This document shows positions 12,504-20,946 of a stretch of 64,000 nucleotides of DNA, one piece after another. Origin of the DNA: an uncultured Selenomonadales bacterium (GTDB lineage: Bacteria > Bacillota > Negativicutes > Acidaminococcales > Acidaminococcaceae); assembly GCA_900316935.1 (NCBI GenBank), contig ONEW01000003.1, positions 1-64,000 of the forward strand, written 5' to 3'. How positions within the stretch are numbered: the first letter of the stretch is position 1; each line of letters begins with the position of its first letter. The notes beneath the pieces were generated by a model. The model had not been told where the DNA came from. It saw only the letters and a program-made list of their open reading frames with translations, and did not search any database. A program made the translations under genes and the position numbers.

Positions 12504-14987
12504 TTATTTGACGACGAGGTTGACCAGGCGTCCCGGTACGGCGATGACCTTGCGGACGGTGCCATCCCCGATGAGTTCCTGGATGCGTTTGTCGGCCAGA
12601 GCCAGTTTTTCCAGTTCGCCCTTGTCGGCGTCGGACGGAACGACCAGCCGGTCGCGGACCTTGCCGTTGATCTGCAGCACGATTTCGACCGTGGCGACCT
12701 TCAGGGCTTCTTCGTCGTACCCCGGCCAGGTCTGGTCATGCACGCTCGTCGTGCCGTCGATCACATGATGCCACAGTTCTTCCGTGATGTGCGGAACAAA
12801 GGGAGCCAGCAGGAGCAGCAGGTCCTTGACGGTTTCGTAAACCAGTCCTGCGCAATATTCCTTCTTGGCGTCCTTATAGGCATACAGGGCGTTCACCAGT
12901 TCCATGAGGGAACTGATGGCCGTGTTGAAGTTGAAACGTTCGTCGATATCTTCCGTCACCTTCTTGATGGAAGCGTTCAAGGCGCGGCGCAGGTCCTTGT
13001 CCTTTTCGTCCAGGTCCTTGACGTCGTACGCAGCCTTTTGGGCCAGCAGGTCGCGGAAATGGTACACGATGCGCCATACGCGGTTCAGGAAACGGAAGCT
13101 GCCGTCCACGCCGCGGTCGCTCCATTCCAGTTCGCGTTCCGGCGGAGCGGCGAAGAGGATGAACAGGCGGGCCGTGTCGGCGCCGTATTTCGAAAGGATC
13201 TCTTCCGGCGATACCACATTGCCCAGGGATTTGGACATCTTGGCGCCGTCCTTGATGACCATGCCCTGCGTCAGCAGGTTGGTGAACGGTTCGTCGTAAT
13301 CGACCATGCCGGCATCGCGCAGCACCTTCAGGAAGAAGCGCGAATAGAGCAGATGCAGGATGGCGTGCTCAATGCCGCCGATGTACTGGTCGACCGGTCC
13401 CCAATAGCCATTGGCGTCTTTGGCAAAAGGCGCCTTGTCGTTATGGGGATCCGTGTAGCGCAGGTAGTACCACGAGGAGCACAGGAACGTGTCCATCGTG
13501 TCCGTTTCACGGGTGGCGTCGGCACCGCACTTCGGGCACTTGCAGTGCAGGAAGCTTTCCGACGTGGCCAGCGGGGATTTTGCGCCCGCATCGAATTTGA
13601 CATCTTCCGGCAGCAGGACGGGCAGCTGGTCTTCAGGAACCAGCACTTCGCCGCAATGCGGGCAGTAGATGATGGGAATGGGGGCACCCCAGTAACGCTG
13701 GCGGCTGATCAACCAGTCGCGCAGGCGGTAGTTGACGACACGCCTGCCCAGGCCTTTTTCCTCCATGTAGTCCATGATGGCCTTCATGGCCTTGTGCATC
13801 TCCATGCCCGTGAACTGGGCGGAGTTGACCAGCACGCCATCCTTTTCCTCGTAGGCGTGGGTCATTTCTTCCAGCTTCAGTTCCTGGCCTTTCGGCTGCA
13901 GGGTGAGGATCTTTTCAATGCCGTATTTTTCCGCGAACATCCAGTCGCGCTGGTCGCCCGAAGGCACGCCCATAACGGCGCCCGTACCGTAATCGTACAG
14001 CACGTAGTTGGTGATCCAGATGTGGACCTTGTGTCCCGTCAGCGGATGGATGCAGTCGTACCCGGTGTACATGCCGAGCTTTTCCGATTCGCTCGACGTA
14101 CGCTCGATATCCGACGTGTTCTTGATCTTGTTGCAGAAGGCTTCCAGTTCGGCCCGGCGGGGATTGTCCCTGAGGATCTTTTCCACCAGCGGGTGTTCCG
14201 GCGGGATGACGACGAAGGTGACGCCGTAAATCGTGTCGGGACGGGTCGTATAGACGGGCAGTTTTTCGCCCAGGTCGGGAATGTCGAAGCTGAATTCCAG
14301 ACCTTCGGAACGGCCGATCCAGTTCTTCTGCATGGTTTTGACGCGCTCGGGCCAGCCGGGAATCTCGTCCATGTCCTTCAGCAGCTCATCGGCGTAATCG
14401 GTGATCTTGAAGAACCACTGGCTCAGGCGTTTCTTGTGCACTTCGTTGTGGCAGCGCCAGCACTTGCCTTCGACGACCTGTTCGTTGGCCAGCACGGTGT
14501 TGCAATGGTCGCACCAGTTGACGGACGACTCCTTTTTCACAGCCAGGCCGCGCTGATAGAACAGTTCGAAGAACCACTGGGTCCATTTATAGTATTCCGG
14601 TTTGCACGTAATGACTTCCCGGTTCCAGTCATAGGACAGGCCCATGGCCTTCAGCTGCCGTGTCATGTTGGCGATGTTGTCCATGGTCCATTTCTTCGGC
14701 GGGATGCCATGCTGGATAGCGGCATTTTCGGCCGGCATGCCGAAAGAGTCGAAGCCCATGGGATGCAGGACATTGAAGCCCCTCATGGTGCGGAAACGCG
14801 CCACTACATCGCCGATGGAGTAGTTGCGCACATGACCCATATGCAGGTTGCCCGACGGATACGGGAACATTTCCAGCACATAGGATTTCGGTTTCGATTC
14901 GTCTTTTTCACGTCTGAAAGCTTTATGCTCTTCCCAATATTGCTGCCATTTTGCTTCTATGGCATGGGGCGCATATTTTTCTTCCAT
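12504..14987 (-). CDS. leuS: Leucyl-tRNA synthetase
   Basis: 827 aa, class I synthetase. The HIGH-type motif is in [15 protein letters not shown] near residue 45, a zinc-type cysteine cluster is at C-x-x-C-N (about 160) and CPKCGAD, the editing CP1 domain is at about 225-420, and [10 protein letters not shown] (KMSKS) is near 575. It charges tRNA-Leu with leucine and edits mischarged tRNA. The start at 14987 has a GGGAGGG site; an upstream extension to 15299 runs through the promoter. No T-box precedes it, unlike leuA and leuCDB, so it is probably not controlled by tRNA-Leu charging. Confidence 0.96.
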
Positions 14988-16387: not shown

Positions 16388-17788
16388 TCAGATGTCGAAC
16401 ACTTTGCCCGGGTTCAGGATATCCTTGGGATCCATGGCCCGCTTGATGGTCTTCATGATGGCCAGTTCCCCCTTGGGCGTGAACTCCTCCATATATTTCA
16501 GCTTCTTGGCGCCGATGCCGTGTTCGCCCGCCAGGCGGCCGCCGACACTGTACGCATAGCGGTACACTTCCTGGTGGAATGCCTCCACGTTGCGTTCCCA
16601 TTCCTCCTCGGTCAGGTTGACCTTGCACAGCACGATATGCATGTTGCCGTCGCCGATATGGGCGTTGATCTTGACCTCGAAGGGATACTTTTCCCCTATT
16701 TCCATAACCGTTTGGATGGCCTTGCCGATACGGTTCACCGGCACGACCACGTCATCCGTCAGGAACACGCTGCTGATGAGCTCTACCGAAGTCTGGCAGT
16801 TGCGCCGCATGTTCCAGATGCGGTCGTCGGCCTCCAGCACGTCGACGGCGCCTGATTCCTCGCAGATTTCGCTGACCGTCTCCATCTTCGTGTCGACCTC
16901 GTCCTCCGTATAGGTCTCCACCGTGATGATGACGTAGATGCCGTCCTCGTAATGGGGGACATCGTTGTATTTGCAGTAATCCGCCGTGCCGCGCACATAG
17001 GAATTGTCCATGTATTCGAGGCTCGTCGGATTGATACCGGCCTTAAGCAGTTTCGGCACCATTCCCAGCGCCTGCACGGGATCCGTATAGACGGCGAGGA
17101 TGTCGAAGCGGTACGGCGGCAACGGAACGAGCTTCACCGTCACCTTCGTCACGATGCCCAGCGTCCCCTCGCTGCCGATGATGAGCTGATCCAGGCAGTA
17201 GCCGGTCGTGCATTTCTTCAGATTGGCACCCACCGTCGTGATGTCGCCCGTCGGGGTCACGATTTCCAGAGAATAGACCTGGTTGCGCGTCACGCCGTAA
17301 CGCACGGCTTTCAGACCGCCCGCATTGGTCGCCATGTTGCCGCCGATGAGGGAGCTTTCGGAGCTCGACGGATCTCCGGCATAGAGGAATCCGCGCTTTT
17401 TCGCCTCATTCTGCAGGTCGATGGTGCGTACCCCGGCTTCCGCCGTCAGATACATGCCTTCCTCATCGACTTCGAGAATCTTGTTGAGCCGCTCCATGCA
17501 GAGCACCACGCCGCCGCAGACCGGAATGGCCCCGTCCGCCAGGCTCGTGCCGCCGCCGCGCACCGTGATGGGGAATTCGAATTCATTCGCCAGTTTCACG
17601 ATTGCCGCGATTTCCTCAGGACCGGCCGGATGGACCGCCGCCTCGGGCATGTGGAAATAACGCGGGTTCGATTCGTAGTCCGTCTGATACTGCATCAGGA
17701 TATCGTGATCGGTCTTGACATATTTATCGCCAACGATGGCTTTCAGTTTCGCGATGACTTCGGAAGTAACAGGTTTATAGGTCCGCAT
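16388..17788 (-). CDS. FAD-binding 2-hydroxyacid dehydrogenase (GlcD / D-lactate dehydrogenase type)
   Basis: 466 aa. The FAD-binding-4 (VAO-type) domain spans about residues 40-180 with ITVRGGGTSLADGAIP and GDPSSSESSLIGGNMATNAGG. The FAD-oxidase C-terminal domain ends with HIGDGNMH and AGEHGIGAKK, the flavin and metal contacts of this family. It oxidises 2-hydroxyacids such as D-lactate or glycolate. In anaerobes related proteins couple to electron-transfer flavoprotein, but no etf genes lie beside it, so coupling and substrate are inferred. An AGGAGG site precedes the start. It appears monocistronic. Confidence 0.88.
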   Translation of the reverse strand: MRTYKPVTSEVIAKLKAIVGDKYVKTDHDILMQYQTDYESNPRYFHMPEAAVHPAGPEEIAAIVKLANEFEFPITVRGGGTSLADGAIPVCGGVVLCMERLNKILEVDEEGMYLTAEAGVRTIDLQNEAKKRGFLYAGDPSSSESSLIGGNMATNAGGLKAVRYGVTRNQVYSLEIVTPTGDITTVGANLKKCTTGYCLDQLIIGSEGTLGIVTKVTVKLVPLPPYRFDILAVYTDPVQALGMVPKLLKAGINPTSLEYMDNSYVRGTADYCKYNDVPHYEDGIYVIITVETYTEDEVDTKMETVSEICEESGAVDVLEADDRIWNMRRNCQTSVELISSVFLTDDVVVPVNRIGKAIQTVMEIGEKYPFEVKINAHIGDGNMHIVLCKVNLTEEEWERNVEAFHQEVYRYAYSVGGRLAGEHGIGAKKLKYMEEFTPKGELAIMKTIKRAMDPKDILNPGKVFDI

Positions 17789-17850
17789 GGTGAAAATCCT
17801 CCTGCATTACAAAAAATTTGTTTCATTTTACCATGATTTCCCTCTTTTTT

Positions 17851-17912
17851 AAAGCACCGCCTTGCAGCCAAACAAAAAAGGCCGCTGCTGGGCGGCAGCG
17901 GCCTCCTTGCAG
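17851..17912. repeat. 62-bp direct repeat, copy 1 (contains a terminator)
   Basis: Matches 18733-18794 at 61 of 62 positions; the one difference is T at 17889 against C at 18771. The repeat starts AAAGCACCGCCTTGCAGCC. It includes the terminator hairpin of the exported-protein gene at 17916. Confidence 0.95.
17873..17904 (-). terminator. Terminator of the exported IPAG protein gene
   Basis: AGGCCGCTGC (17879-17888) pairs with GCAGCGGCCT (17895-17904), followed on the minus strand by six T. It lies 12 bp beyond the stop at 17916. Confidence 0.88.
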
Positions 17913-17915
17913 CAA

Positions 17916-18626
17916 TTACCGGATGGAAATGGAAACCCCGTGAGGTTTCTCCGGGTTCATCGCTTCCTGCAAATCTTTCAAACTGGTTTTCAAATCCGTA
18001 TCGTTCTTCACTTTCGCCGCAAACTTCGTACCGGCCGGAATTGATACATTCTTCCCTTTCATAAGGAATCCCCCGAGAATGGAGACCACGGCTGTCACAG
18101 CAATCGCACCACCGTCGGAGCCTGCCTGTATTTTTCCCATGTATTCCAGCGGAATATCCACCCCGTTGATGGTACGGACTTTATCGATACTGAAAATCAA
18201 CTTGCCGGCACGTCCGAAAAACCCGGAGCTGGTAGCCTTTGTCACCTTTCCTTCCACTTCTGCCCCGGCAGGAACTACAATGACATCGTTCAAAATCAAA
18301 TTTTCCATCATCTTGAAACGGACTATGTCGCCAGTCCTTGCCGTTTTGGAATGCAGTGCCGTAACCAATTCGACATTCAATTGCGTACCACCGGGAATAT
18401 ACGCTTCCCCGGCAGGCATTTTGGAGATTTCCGCCTGCGCCATTTTTGCTTTCAGCCGTTCCTTAAAAGACAGCGGCTCCCCGTTTTCCGCCGTGGCCGT
18501 CTCCTTCTGTGGCTGAATCTGTTCCAGCTGCGGATCGGCATACGCCGGTGCGGCCGCCACAAACGGGGCGGCAAAGACCGCTGTACTCAGGACGATTGCC
18601 AAAACTTTCTCCTTGCGGGTCTGCAT
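17916..18626 (-). CDS. Exported protein with paired IPAG/VPAG beta-type segments, unknown function
   Basis: 236 aa with a signal peptide of about 35 residues ending near AYA. The mature part has two similar strands-and-turn segments, AYIPGGTQLNVEL near 80 and NVSIPAGTKFAAKV near 200, with VVPAGAEVEGKV between; this pattern recalls the C-terminal beta domain of VirB10/TrbI-like proteins, but the match is weak and I name no family. The start at 18626 has a GGGAGGAA site; an ATG at 18641 lies within that site. By eye it is less GC-rich than its neighbours. It is flanked by a 62-bp direct repeat. Confidence 0.7.
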   Translation of the reverse strand: MQTRKEKVLAIVLSTAVFAAPFVAAAPAYADPQLEQIQPQKETATAENGEPLSFKERLKAKMAQAEISKMPAGEAYIPGGTQLNVELVTALHSKTARTGDIVRFKMMENLILNDVIVVPAGAEVEGKVTKATSSGFFGRAGKLIFSIDKVRTINGVDIPLEYMGKIQAGSDGGAIAVTAVVSILGGFLMKGKNVSIPAGTKFAAKVKNDTDLKTSLKDLQEAMNPEKPHGVSISIR

Positions 18627-18732
18627 AATGGTTCCTCCCATCTACATTTTTTGTCCTCTTCAGACCGAAATCTGACGGTATGTTCATTATATAGATTCCC
18701 CTGGACATAAGATGTCGCAACCGGTTGAACCC

Positions 18733-18794
18733 AAAGCACCGCCTTGCAGCCAAACAAAAAAGGCCGCTGCCGGGCGGCAGCGGCCTCCTTGCAG
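18733..18794. repeat. 62-bp direct repeat, copy 2 (orphan terminator)
   Basis: Second copy of the repeat at 17851-17912, 882 bp away in the same orientation. Its hairpin (18761-18770 with 18777-18786) plus T-run points along the minus strand, but no minus-strand gene lies directly upstream of it, so here the terminator serves no visible gene. Confidence 0.95.
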
Positions 18795-18812: not shown

Positions 18813-18840
18813 TTGACAATGCCGCAAACGACTTTATAAT
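18813..18840 (+). promoter_or_regulatory. Promoter of the threonine-aldolase-type gene
   Basis: TTGACA (18813-18818) and TATAAT (18835-18840), both consensus, with 16-bp spacing. The leader to the ATG is about 27 nt. Confidence 0.85.
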
Positions 18841-18873
18841 GAACTTAAATCCGATATAAAGGAGGAAACCCCT

Positions 18874-19926
18874 ATGTATTCTTTTGCTTGCGATTATCTG
18901 GAAGGATGCCATGAAGAAGTACTGAAGGCACTCTGCCAGACCAATCTGGAACAGACCCCCGGCTACGGGGCGGACCGTTTTACCAAGGCGGCCACGGAAA
19001 AAATCCGGCAGCTCTGCCGGGATGACGCGGCGGCAGTCTATTTTGTGAATGGCGGCACGCAGGCCAACCAACTGGTCATCGACACTATGCTGCAGCCCTA
19101 TGAAGGCGTCGTGGCGGCCCAGTCCGGCCATGTGAACGTGCACGAGGCCGGGGCCATCGAATTTTCCGGGCACAAAGTCCTGGCCATCCCGTCCGCGCGG
19201 CACGACGGAAAACTCGCGGCGGCTGATGCAGACGCCTTCGTAAAAGCCTTCTATGCCGACCCGAACCACGAGCACATGGTCTTTCCCGGCATGGTGTACA
19301 TTTCCCATCCCACGGAATACGGCACGCTGTACACGGCGCAGGAACTGCGCGAGCTCTCCGCGGTCTGCCGCCGGCACCACATGTCTCTCTATCTGGACGG
19401 GGCGCGGCTCGTCTACGGCCTGGCGGCCTACGGTACCGATGTCACCCTGTCCCTCCTCGATGAACTCTGCGACGTCTTCTACATCGGCGGCACCAAAGCA
19501 GGCGCCCTGAACGGCGAAGCCATCGTCTTCCCGCGCGGCGCGGAACCCCCGCATTTTCTGACCCGCATCAAGCAGCACGGGGCCCTTTCCGCCAAAGGCC
19601 GCCTGATTGGCACCCAGTTTGCGGCCCTGTTGGAAAACGACCTCTATTTCCGCATCGGCCGCCATGCCATCGACATGGCGCGGGAAATCCGGAAGATTTT
19701 CCAGGATGCCGGCTGCCGCTTCTACCTGGATTCCCCGACGAACCAGCAGTTCGTCATTCTGGAAAACGAGTCCCTCCGGAAATTGTCTGCCTGGGTGGGC
19801 TTTGAATTCTGGGAACCGTACGATGCGGCGCACGCAGTGGTACGCTTCGCCTCGAGCTGGGCAACAACGCCCGCAGGCATCGCGGAACTGAGGAAGGCCG
19901 TCGCTCTCTGCCTGCCCCGGAAATGA
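18874..19926 (+). CDS. PLP-dependent beta-eliminating lyase, low-specificity threonine aldolase type
   Basis: 350 aa, fold-type I PLP enzyme of the threonine aldolase family. YFVNGGTQANQLV near residue 60 binds the cofactor phosphate, LYLDGARLVYGL near 170 carries the PLP-contacting Asp, and FYIGGTKAGALNGEA near 205 carries the Schiff-base Lys. It cleaves threonine or allo-threonine to glycine and acetaldehyde, though relatives act on other beta-hydroxy amino acids. An AAAGGAGG site and strong promoter precede it. A GNAT acetyltransferase follows 40 bp later and is probably co-transcribed. Confidence 0.85.
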   Translation: MYSFACDYLEGCHEEVLKALCQTNLEQTPGYGADRFTKAATEKIRQLCRDDAAAVYFVNGGTQANQLVIDTMLQPYEGVVAAQSGHVNVHEAGAIEFSGHKVLAIPSARHDGKLAAADADAFVKAFYADPNHEHMVFPGMVYISHPTEYGTLYTAQELRELSAVCRRHHMSLYLDGARLVYGLAAYGTDVTLSLLDELCDVFYIGGTKAGALNGEAIVFPRGAEPPHFLTRIKQHGALSAKGRLIGTQFAALLENDLYFRIGRHAIDMAREIRKIFQDAGCRFYLDSPTNQQFVILENESLRKLSAWVGFEFWEPYDAAHAVVRFASSWATTPAGIAELRKAVALCLPRK

Positions 19927-19966: not shown

Positions 19967-20479
19967 ATGAAACTTGTATTGGCGCAGGAAAAAGACTTTA
20001 AAATGGCCATGCAGATGATCAATGATGCCAAAAAGCACCTGCACGACTGCGGTATCGACCAGTGGCAGAACGGCTACCCTGACGAAGACTGCATCCGGGA
20101 GGACATCCGCCTCCGGAAAGGCTATTTTGCGGAAGAGGACGGCACCAGAATCGGCTACCTCTGCATCGACTACGGCGGCGAACCGGCCTACGCCCACCTG
20201 AATGGCACGTGGGGCACGGAAGAACCCTACGTGGTAGTACACCGCATGGCCTTCTCTGCGGACATGCGGGGCAAAGGGATCAGCAGCGCCGTCTTCCGCC
20301 TCGTAGAAGAGCTGAGCCGCCAGAAAGGCGTCCGTTCCTTCCGCGTCGATACCGACGAGGACAACCACAAAATGAAGCATATCCTGGCAAAATCCGGCTT
20401 CACATACCGCGGTACCATCTGGTTCGACAACAGCGTAAAAATCGCTTACGACAAACCGTTAGCCGGAGGAATCCGATAA
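19967..20479 (+). CDS. GNAT-family N-acetyltransferase
   Basis: 170 aa. The GNAT acetyl-CoA site is in VVVHRMAFSADMRGKGISSAVF (residues about 88-109), with R-G-K-G-I-S as the pyrophosphate loop, and DEDNHKMKHILAKSGFTYRG near the end is the typical motif-B region. The substrate cannot be inferred. A GAAAGGAAAG site lies upstream. It is the second gene of the unit that starts with the threonine-aldolase-type lyase. Confidence 0.85.
   Translation: MKLVLAQEKDFKMAMQMINDAKKHLHDCGIDQWQNGYPDEDCIREDIRLRKGYFAEEDGTRIGYLCIDYGGEPAYAHLNGTWGTEEPYVVVHRMAFSADMRGKGISSAVFRLVEELSRQKGVRSFRVDTDEDNHKMKHILAKSGFTYRGTIWFDNSVKIAYDKPLAGGIR

Positions 20480-20869: not shown

Positions 20870-20946
<77 letters not shown>

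Follow-up and report, generated by a model that had tools for sequence, protein, structure and literature searches.

A single-gene insertion or deletion, probably at terminator-like short direct repeats, in an uncultured Selenomonadales bacterium and its congeners

Why should a single gene lie between two nearly identical terminator-like repeats, when only one of them has a gene to end? This question is raised by a locus in a 64-kb stretch of DNA (64,000 nucleotides, hereafter the window) from an uncultured Selenomonadales bacterium (G000; 1.95 Mb in 46 contigs, 92.5% complete). An initial annotation of the window described a gene flanked by a 62-bp direct repeat and took the repeat-gene segment to be inserted or duplicated, and cleanly deletable by recombination between the copies. 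Here, the repeats, the gene and the corresponding junctions in related species were analyzed in order to ask how the gene came to be there.

A gene between two copies of a 62-bp repeat

The two copies (17851-17912 and 18733-18794) are identical at 61 of 62 bases, have the same orientation and lie 882 bp apart, measured start to start; identity, orientation and spacing were recomputed and agree with the initial annotation. A chance origin of the pair is excluded, because every repeated 20-mer of the 64-kb window (23/23) falls within it. One additional family of long direct repeats was found in the window, and it is imperfect. The initial annotation had also suggested searching the genome for further copies of the unit, which might reveal it as a common terminator cassette. 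Such a cassette was rejected, as the 62-bp unit has only two copies genome-wide, both at this locus. A hairpin with an identical inner stem occurs at two extra places in the genome outside the pair. The features of the locus are listed below.

16388..17788, minus strand: left neighbour, a GlcD-like FAD-linked oxidase gene
17825..17853, minus strand: promoter-like site for the GlcD-like gene, immediately next to the left repeat: TTTAAA-17-TAAAAT, the -10 preceded by TG
17851..17912, minus strand: left 62-bp copy, a terminator-like hairpin and T-run directly after the exported-protein gene
17916..18641, minus strand: exported-protein gene, 241 aa, with a signal-peptide-like start and a VirB10/TrbI C-terminal-like beta domain
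18642..18732, minus strand: upstream region of this gene, with a TATAAT-like -10 and the palindrome GACAT-CTT-ATGTC, read from the sequence and the alignment with G008
18733..18794, minus strand: right 62-bp copy, the same hairpin with a 10-bp core stem, -28.8 kcal/mol
18813..18840, plus strand: promoter-like site of the aldolase-type gene, TTGACA-16-TATAAT, 12/12
18874..19926, plus strand: right neighbour, a PLP enzyme gene of the beta-eliminating lyase / threonine aldolase type

Filled and empty sites in related species

The junction was compared with that of two congeners, G008 (uncultured Selenomonadales bacterium RUG113, contig ONAN01000030.1) and G009; all three genomes are draft assemblies (30-50 contigs), one per species. 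In G008, the gene is found at the same position adjoining the GlcD-like gene, its protein being 91% identical to that of G000. It is flanked by its own two hairpin copies, which lie 881 bp apart and share 33/34 bases over 34 bp. Between G008 and G000, however, just 25-27 of 38 alignment columns of the repeat copies are identical. In G009 the gene is missing, and a single 62-base unit (G009:C2:1097-1158) separates the GlcD-like and aldolase-type genes. This unit is 45/62 (73%) identical to the right G000 copy, ungapped, with homologous flanks on both sides. The missing gene is not explained by incompleteness of the G009 assembly, because the empty junction was read directly. A sibling allele that has a single repeat and lacks the gene, as the initial annotation had proposed to look for, thus exists, albeit in a different species rather than a strain, and the opposite outcome, that all relatives keep the gene and both copies, does not hold.

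Over the parts of the window compared, identity is mostly 91-95% between G000 and G008 and 70-86% between G000 and G009, and G009 is the outgroup to the other two. A scan of 53 kb of G008 and 12 kb of G009 yielded no long direct repeats other than the G008 pair at this locus. A literature search returned nothing on this locus.

Probable recombination at the repeats

We regard an accessory-gene indel at short direct repeats as the likely explanation, the gene being exchanged horizontally and gained or lost via homologous recombination or slippage. Two direct copies and an alternative one-copy allele are present, and in G009 the flanks join precisely at the single copy (62 bp ungapped). The initial reading of the segment as inserted or duplicated, and cleanly deletable, is supported by this one-unit allele, which fits an insertion as well as a deletion. 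Copies of 34-62 bp less than 1 kb apart suit RecA-dependent and slippage-type events. Pairing of the copies, by RecA-dependent crossover, single-strand annealing or replication slippage, would remove the gene exactly and leave one unit, while homologous integration would add the gene and result in two; the repeats or the flanks may act as homology arms for its horizontal exchange. Because one unit always remains, the GlcD-like and aldolase-type promoters would be intact in both states. The -35-like hexamer of the GlcD-like promoter reaches into the left unit at its outer edge, so that this promoter would survive an exact exchange there. The locus resembles known deletions and duplications at short direct repeats in its direct copies less than 1 kb apart, its one-copy allele and its intact flanks, but differs in that the repeat is also the terminator of the gene and in that homogenisation of the copies seems to have taken place in each of two species on its own.

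In a four-way alignment of the G000 and G008 copies, 9 columns group the copies by genome and 0 by position, the pattern of concerted evolution, here in two species. Pairing without crossover (gene conversion) would keep the copies alike. Since G008 has a matched pair of its own, the near-identity of the copies is probably due to homogenisation inside a genome and not to recent origin alone. rRNA operons are a known case of concerted evolution by gene conversion. As in intragenomic conversion, a copy resembles its partner in the same genome more than the copy at the corresponding position in the sibling, although here the copies are very short (34-62 bp), non-coding and placed around one gene. 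Alternatively, with two species compared, the grouping by genome could have arisen if two acquisitions took place separately and a duplication accompanied each of them.

Gain or loss of the gene

The initial annotation had judged the gene less GC-rich by eye. This was confirmed: in G000 the gene has a GC content of 51.8% and a GC3 of 0.59, compared with 58-63% and 0.76-0.82 for the adjoining genes, with the exception of the GNAT gene (55.6% and 0.73). In G008 its GC3 is 0.37, while most neighbours in either genome lie at 0.72-0.87. A low GC3, of about 0.63, is also found in one gene at the window's left end (143-1078). Between G000 and G008, the dS of the exported-protein gene is 0.818 and that of its neighbours 0.139-0.507. 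Because of its outlying GC3 and dS, the gene does not appear to have been simply inherited with its flanks; it was probably replaced, or acquired separately, at least once.

Between G000 and G009, dS is 0.60 for the GlcD-like gene, 0.29 for the aldolase-type gene and 0.6-1.5 for other genes. This contrast between the two flanking genes places a probable recombination boundary within or close to the repeat-gene segment, as judged from three draft genomes. The low dS to G009 covers the aldolase-type gene, and its promoter region is also closer, which suggests horizontal exchange to the right of the repeat.

The favoured recombination at the repeats can be read in either direction. That the lineage of G000 and G008 gained the gene, once or twice, through a homologous integration that duplicated the single unit comes close to an even chance. 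A circle carrying the gene and one unit, or a tandem duplication followed by loss, would be examples of possible routes. In favour of a gain are the low GC3 of the gene, its high dS and its restricted distribution, together with the grouping of the repeat copies by genome. On the other hand, neither a donor nor a circular intermediate was found, and the insertion site and an alignable upstream region are common to G000 and G008, which makes two wholly independent gains less likely.

A loss, with the unit-gene-unit arrangement already in the common ancestor and G009 dropping the gene by one crossover or slippage event, is plausible too, at slightly lower odds. The unit that remains in G009 is a terminator-like hairpin that ends no gene, much like a deletion scar, and the contrast between the ordinary divergence of the left flank of G009 (glcD dS 0.60) and the unusually low divergence of its right flank (aldolase-type 0.29) places a boundary at or near the unit. 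However, G000 and G008 each have an orphan right copy even though they retain the gene, which shows that a unit with no gene to end is not necessarily a scar. Moreover, no other member of the genus carries the close form of the gene, and G009 is the outgroup, so that G009 never having had the gene fits equally well. The remaining members of the genus do not settle the direction: the closest GlcD-like and aldolase-type genes that they carry reach only ~54-60% identity and, where the surrounding stretches were examined, adjoin neither each other nor the regulator of G008 (see below). Composition and distribution slightly favour gain, and the orphan terminator in G009 favours loss; with three species compared, the sequences are compatible with G009 either having lost the gene or never having had it.

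Terminator-like hairpins

Both units fold, on the minus strand, into a GC-rich stem with TTTTTTGTTTG after it. The exported-protein gene (17916-18641, minus strand) reaches its stop codon 3 bp before the left copy, which thus has the stem and the T-run of an intrinsic terminator just past a stop codon. At the right copy there is no such gene end on the minus strand, the next gene rightward (18874) being on the plus strand. Hairpins and gene map therefore bear out the initial assignment, in which the left copy is the terminator of the gene and the right copy ends nothing. A search for known RNA families near the repeats matched only the nearby tRNA.

It is conceivable, though unlikely, that selection keeps both terminators as insulation, the left one halting the transcript of the gene before the GlcD-like gene and the right one blocking antisense transcription from the aldolase side. 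Both folded copies carry a T-run on the same strand, and in G000 the right hairpin is the stronger of the two (-28.8 vs -25.2 kcal/mol), as the sole base difference between the copies sits at the top of the stem and gives the right copy one additional pair. In G008, in contrast, an outer pair of the right copy is broken, and its hairpin is less stable than that of the left (-20.0 vs -29.0 kcal/mol), which is compatible with the absence of strong selection there. Furthermore, no promoter-like site was found on the minus strand rightward of the right copy, scanned to 20700.

The exported-protein gene

The exported protein matches the Pfam TrbI profile with a sub-threshold score of 17 bits (cut-off 35) and the VirB10 profile with 12.2, below the curated cut-off of 220. 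The AlphaFold2 model has a mean pLDDT of 67, with roughly 80-90 in the beta domain, and a Foldseek search of the model against the PDB returned C-terminal domains of the VirB10 family (best E 7.5e-6). Type IV secretion genes were absent among the adjacent genes examined. The description that fits the product best is that of a stand-alone exported protein carrying a VirB10-CTD-like domain. It is akin to VirB10/TrbI C-terminal domain proteins in its predicted beta domain, which matches VirB10-family structures, and in its weak TrbI profile match, but differs from them in scoring below the curated cut-offs and in standing without adjacent type IV secretion genes.

The close form of the gene is restricted to G000 and G008; at the DNA level it was absent from the remaining genomes among 59 of the family. 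The nearest relatives beyond G008 are ~41% identical proteins in unrelated neighbourhoods, and distant relatives, many of them longer, occur in 56 of 61 genomes of the class. Around the distant homologues in other genera, only short matches of 67-81% to the repeats were found, and nothing comparable to the pair. The protein can be placed in a large family of stand-alone exported VirB10-CTD-like proteins that is common in the class and that no curated family names. Upstream of its gene, the palindrome GACAT-CTT-ATGTC precedes the -10-like TATAAT and is mostly conserved in G008, making it a possible regulator site.

Plasmids contained no full-length relative of the gene, the one partial match (32%) being on a Sphingobium plasmid; viral contigs held no relative, and there was no PHROG match. 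Carriage by a phage or plasmid was rejected on these searches.

It is very improbable that a mobile element or high-copy repeat (REP/BIME, MITE or integron cassette) carried the gene: hairpin-bearing repeats around a compositionally odd gene would suit one, but the genome holds two copies instead of many, their ends are direct and not inverted, and the gene of the segment and its neighbours include neither a transposase nor the integrase that would mark an integron. Like the stem-loop families of the REP/BIME type, the unit is an intergenic palindrome with a stable stem; unlike them, it has two copies in one place and a T-run on one strand. By one published account, REPs usually exceed 100 copies per genome (PMC2817692). 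An assembly artefact, which drafts of 30-50 contigs might invite, is equally hard to credit, given that G008 was assembled independently with the same architecture and different repeat sequences, that the G000 copies differ by one base and that the unit is shorter than the usual short read.

Implications

As a natural example the locus is clean: three related species together display filled sites, an empty site and homogenised repeats, which makes the role of terminator-sized repeats in the gain and loss of single genes testable. So far it is one locus, an event of a known kind for which ordinary recombination suffices as the mechanism. A wider reading, which we put forward as a distinctly doubtful conjecture, is that terminators are recurring homology arms in this clade: a gene with its terminator would recombine into a like terminator, conversion would match the copies, and the gene would cycle in and out or amplify with the neighbouring promoters unharmed. 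If common, such events would provide a transposase-free route of gene exchange that spares neighbouring transcription.

Neighbouring genes

In G008, the right repeat is separated from the aldolase-type gene by a gene for a 183-aa regulator, by eye of the XRE-cupin type (G008:C21 ~13775-14325, L029). G009 apparently has a short remnant of it, and G000 has none (window 18841-18873). Despite the missing regulator, this interval of G000 retains part of the likely operator ACTTAAATCCGATATA. Judging from these sequences, the presence or absence of the regulator may represent a second indel at the same junction. Further to the right, the GNAT acetyltransferase gene (19967-20479) is present in G000 and G008 and missing at that place in G009. 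The stretch from the GlcD-like gene to the tRNA-Arg (20870-20946) is generally variable.
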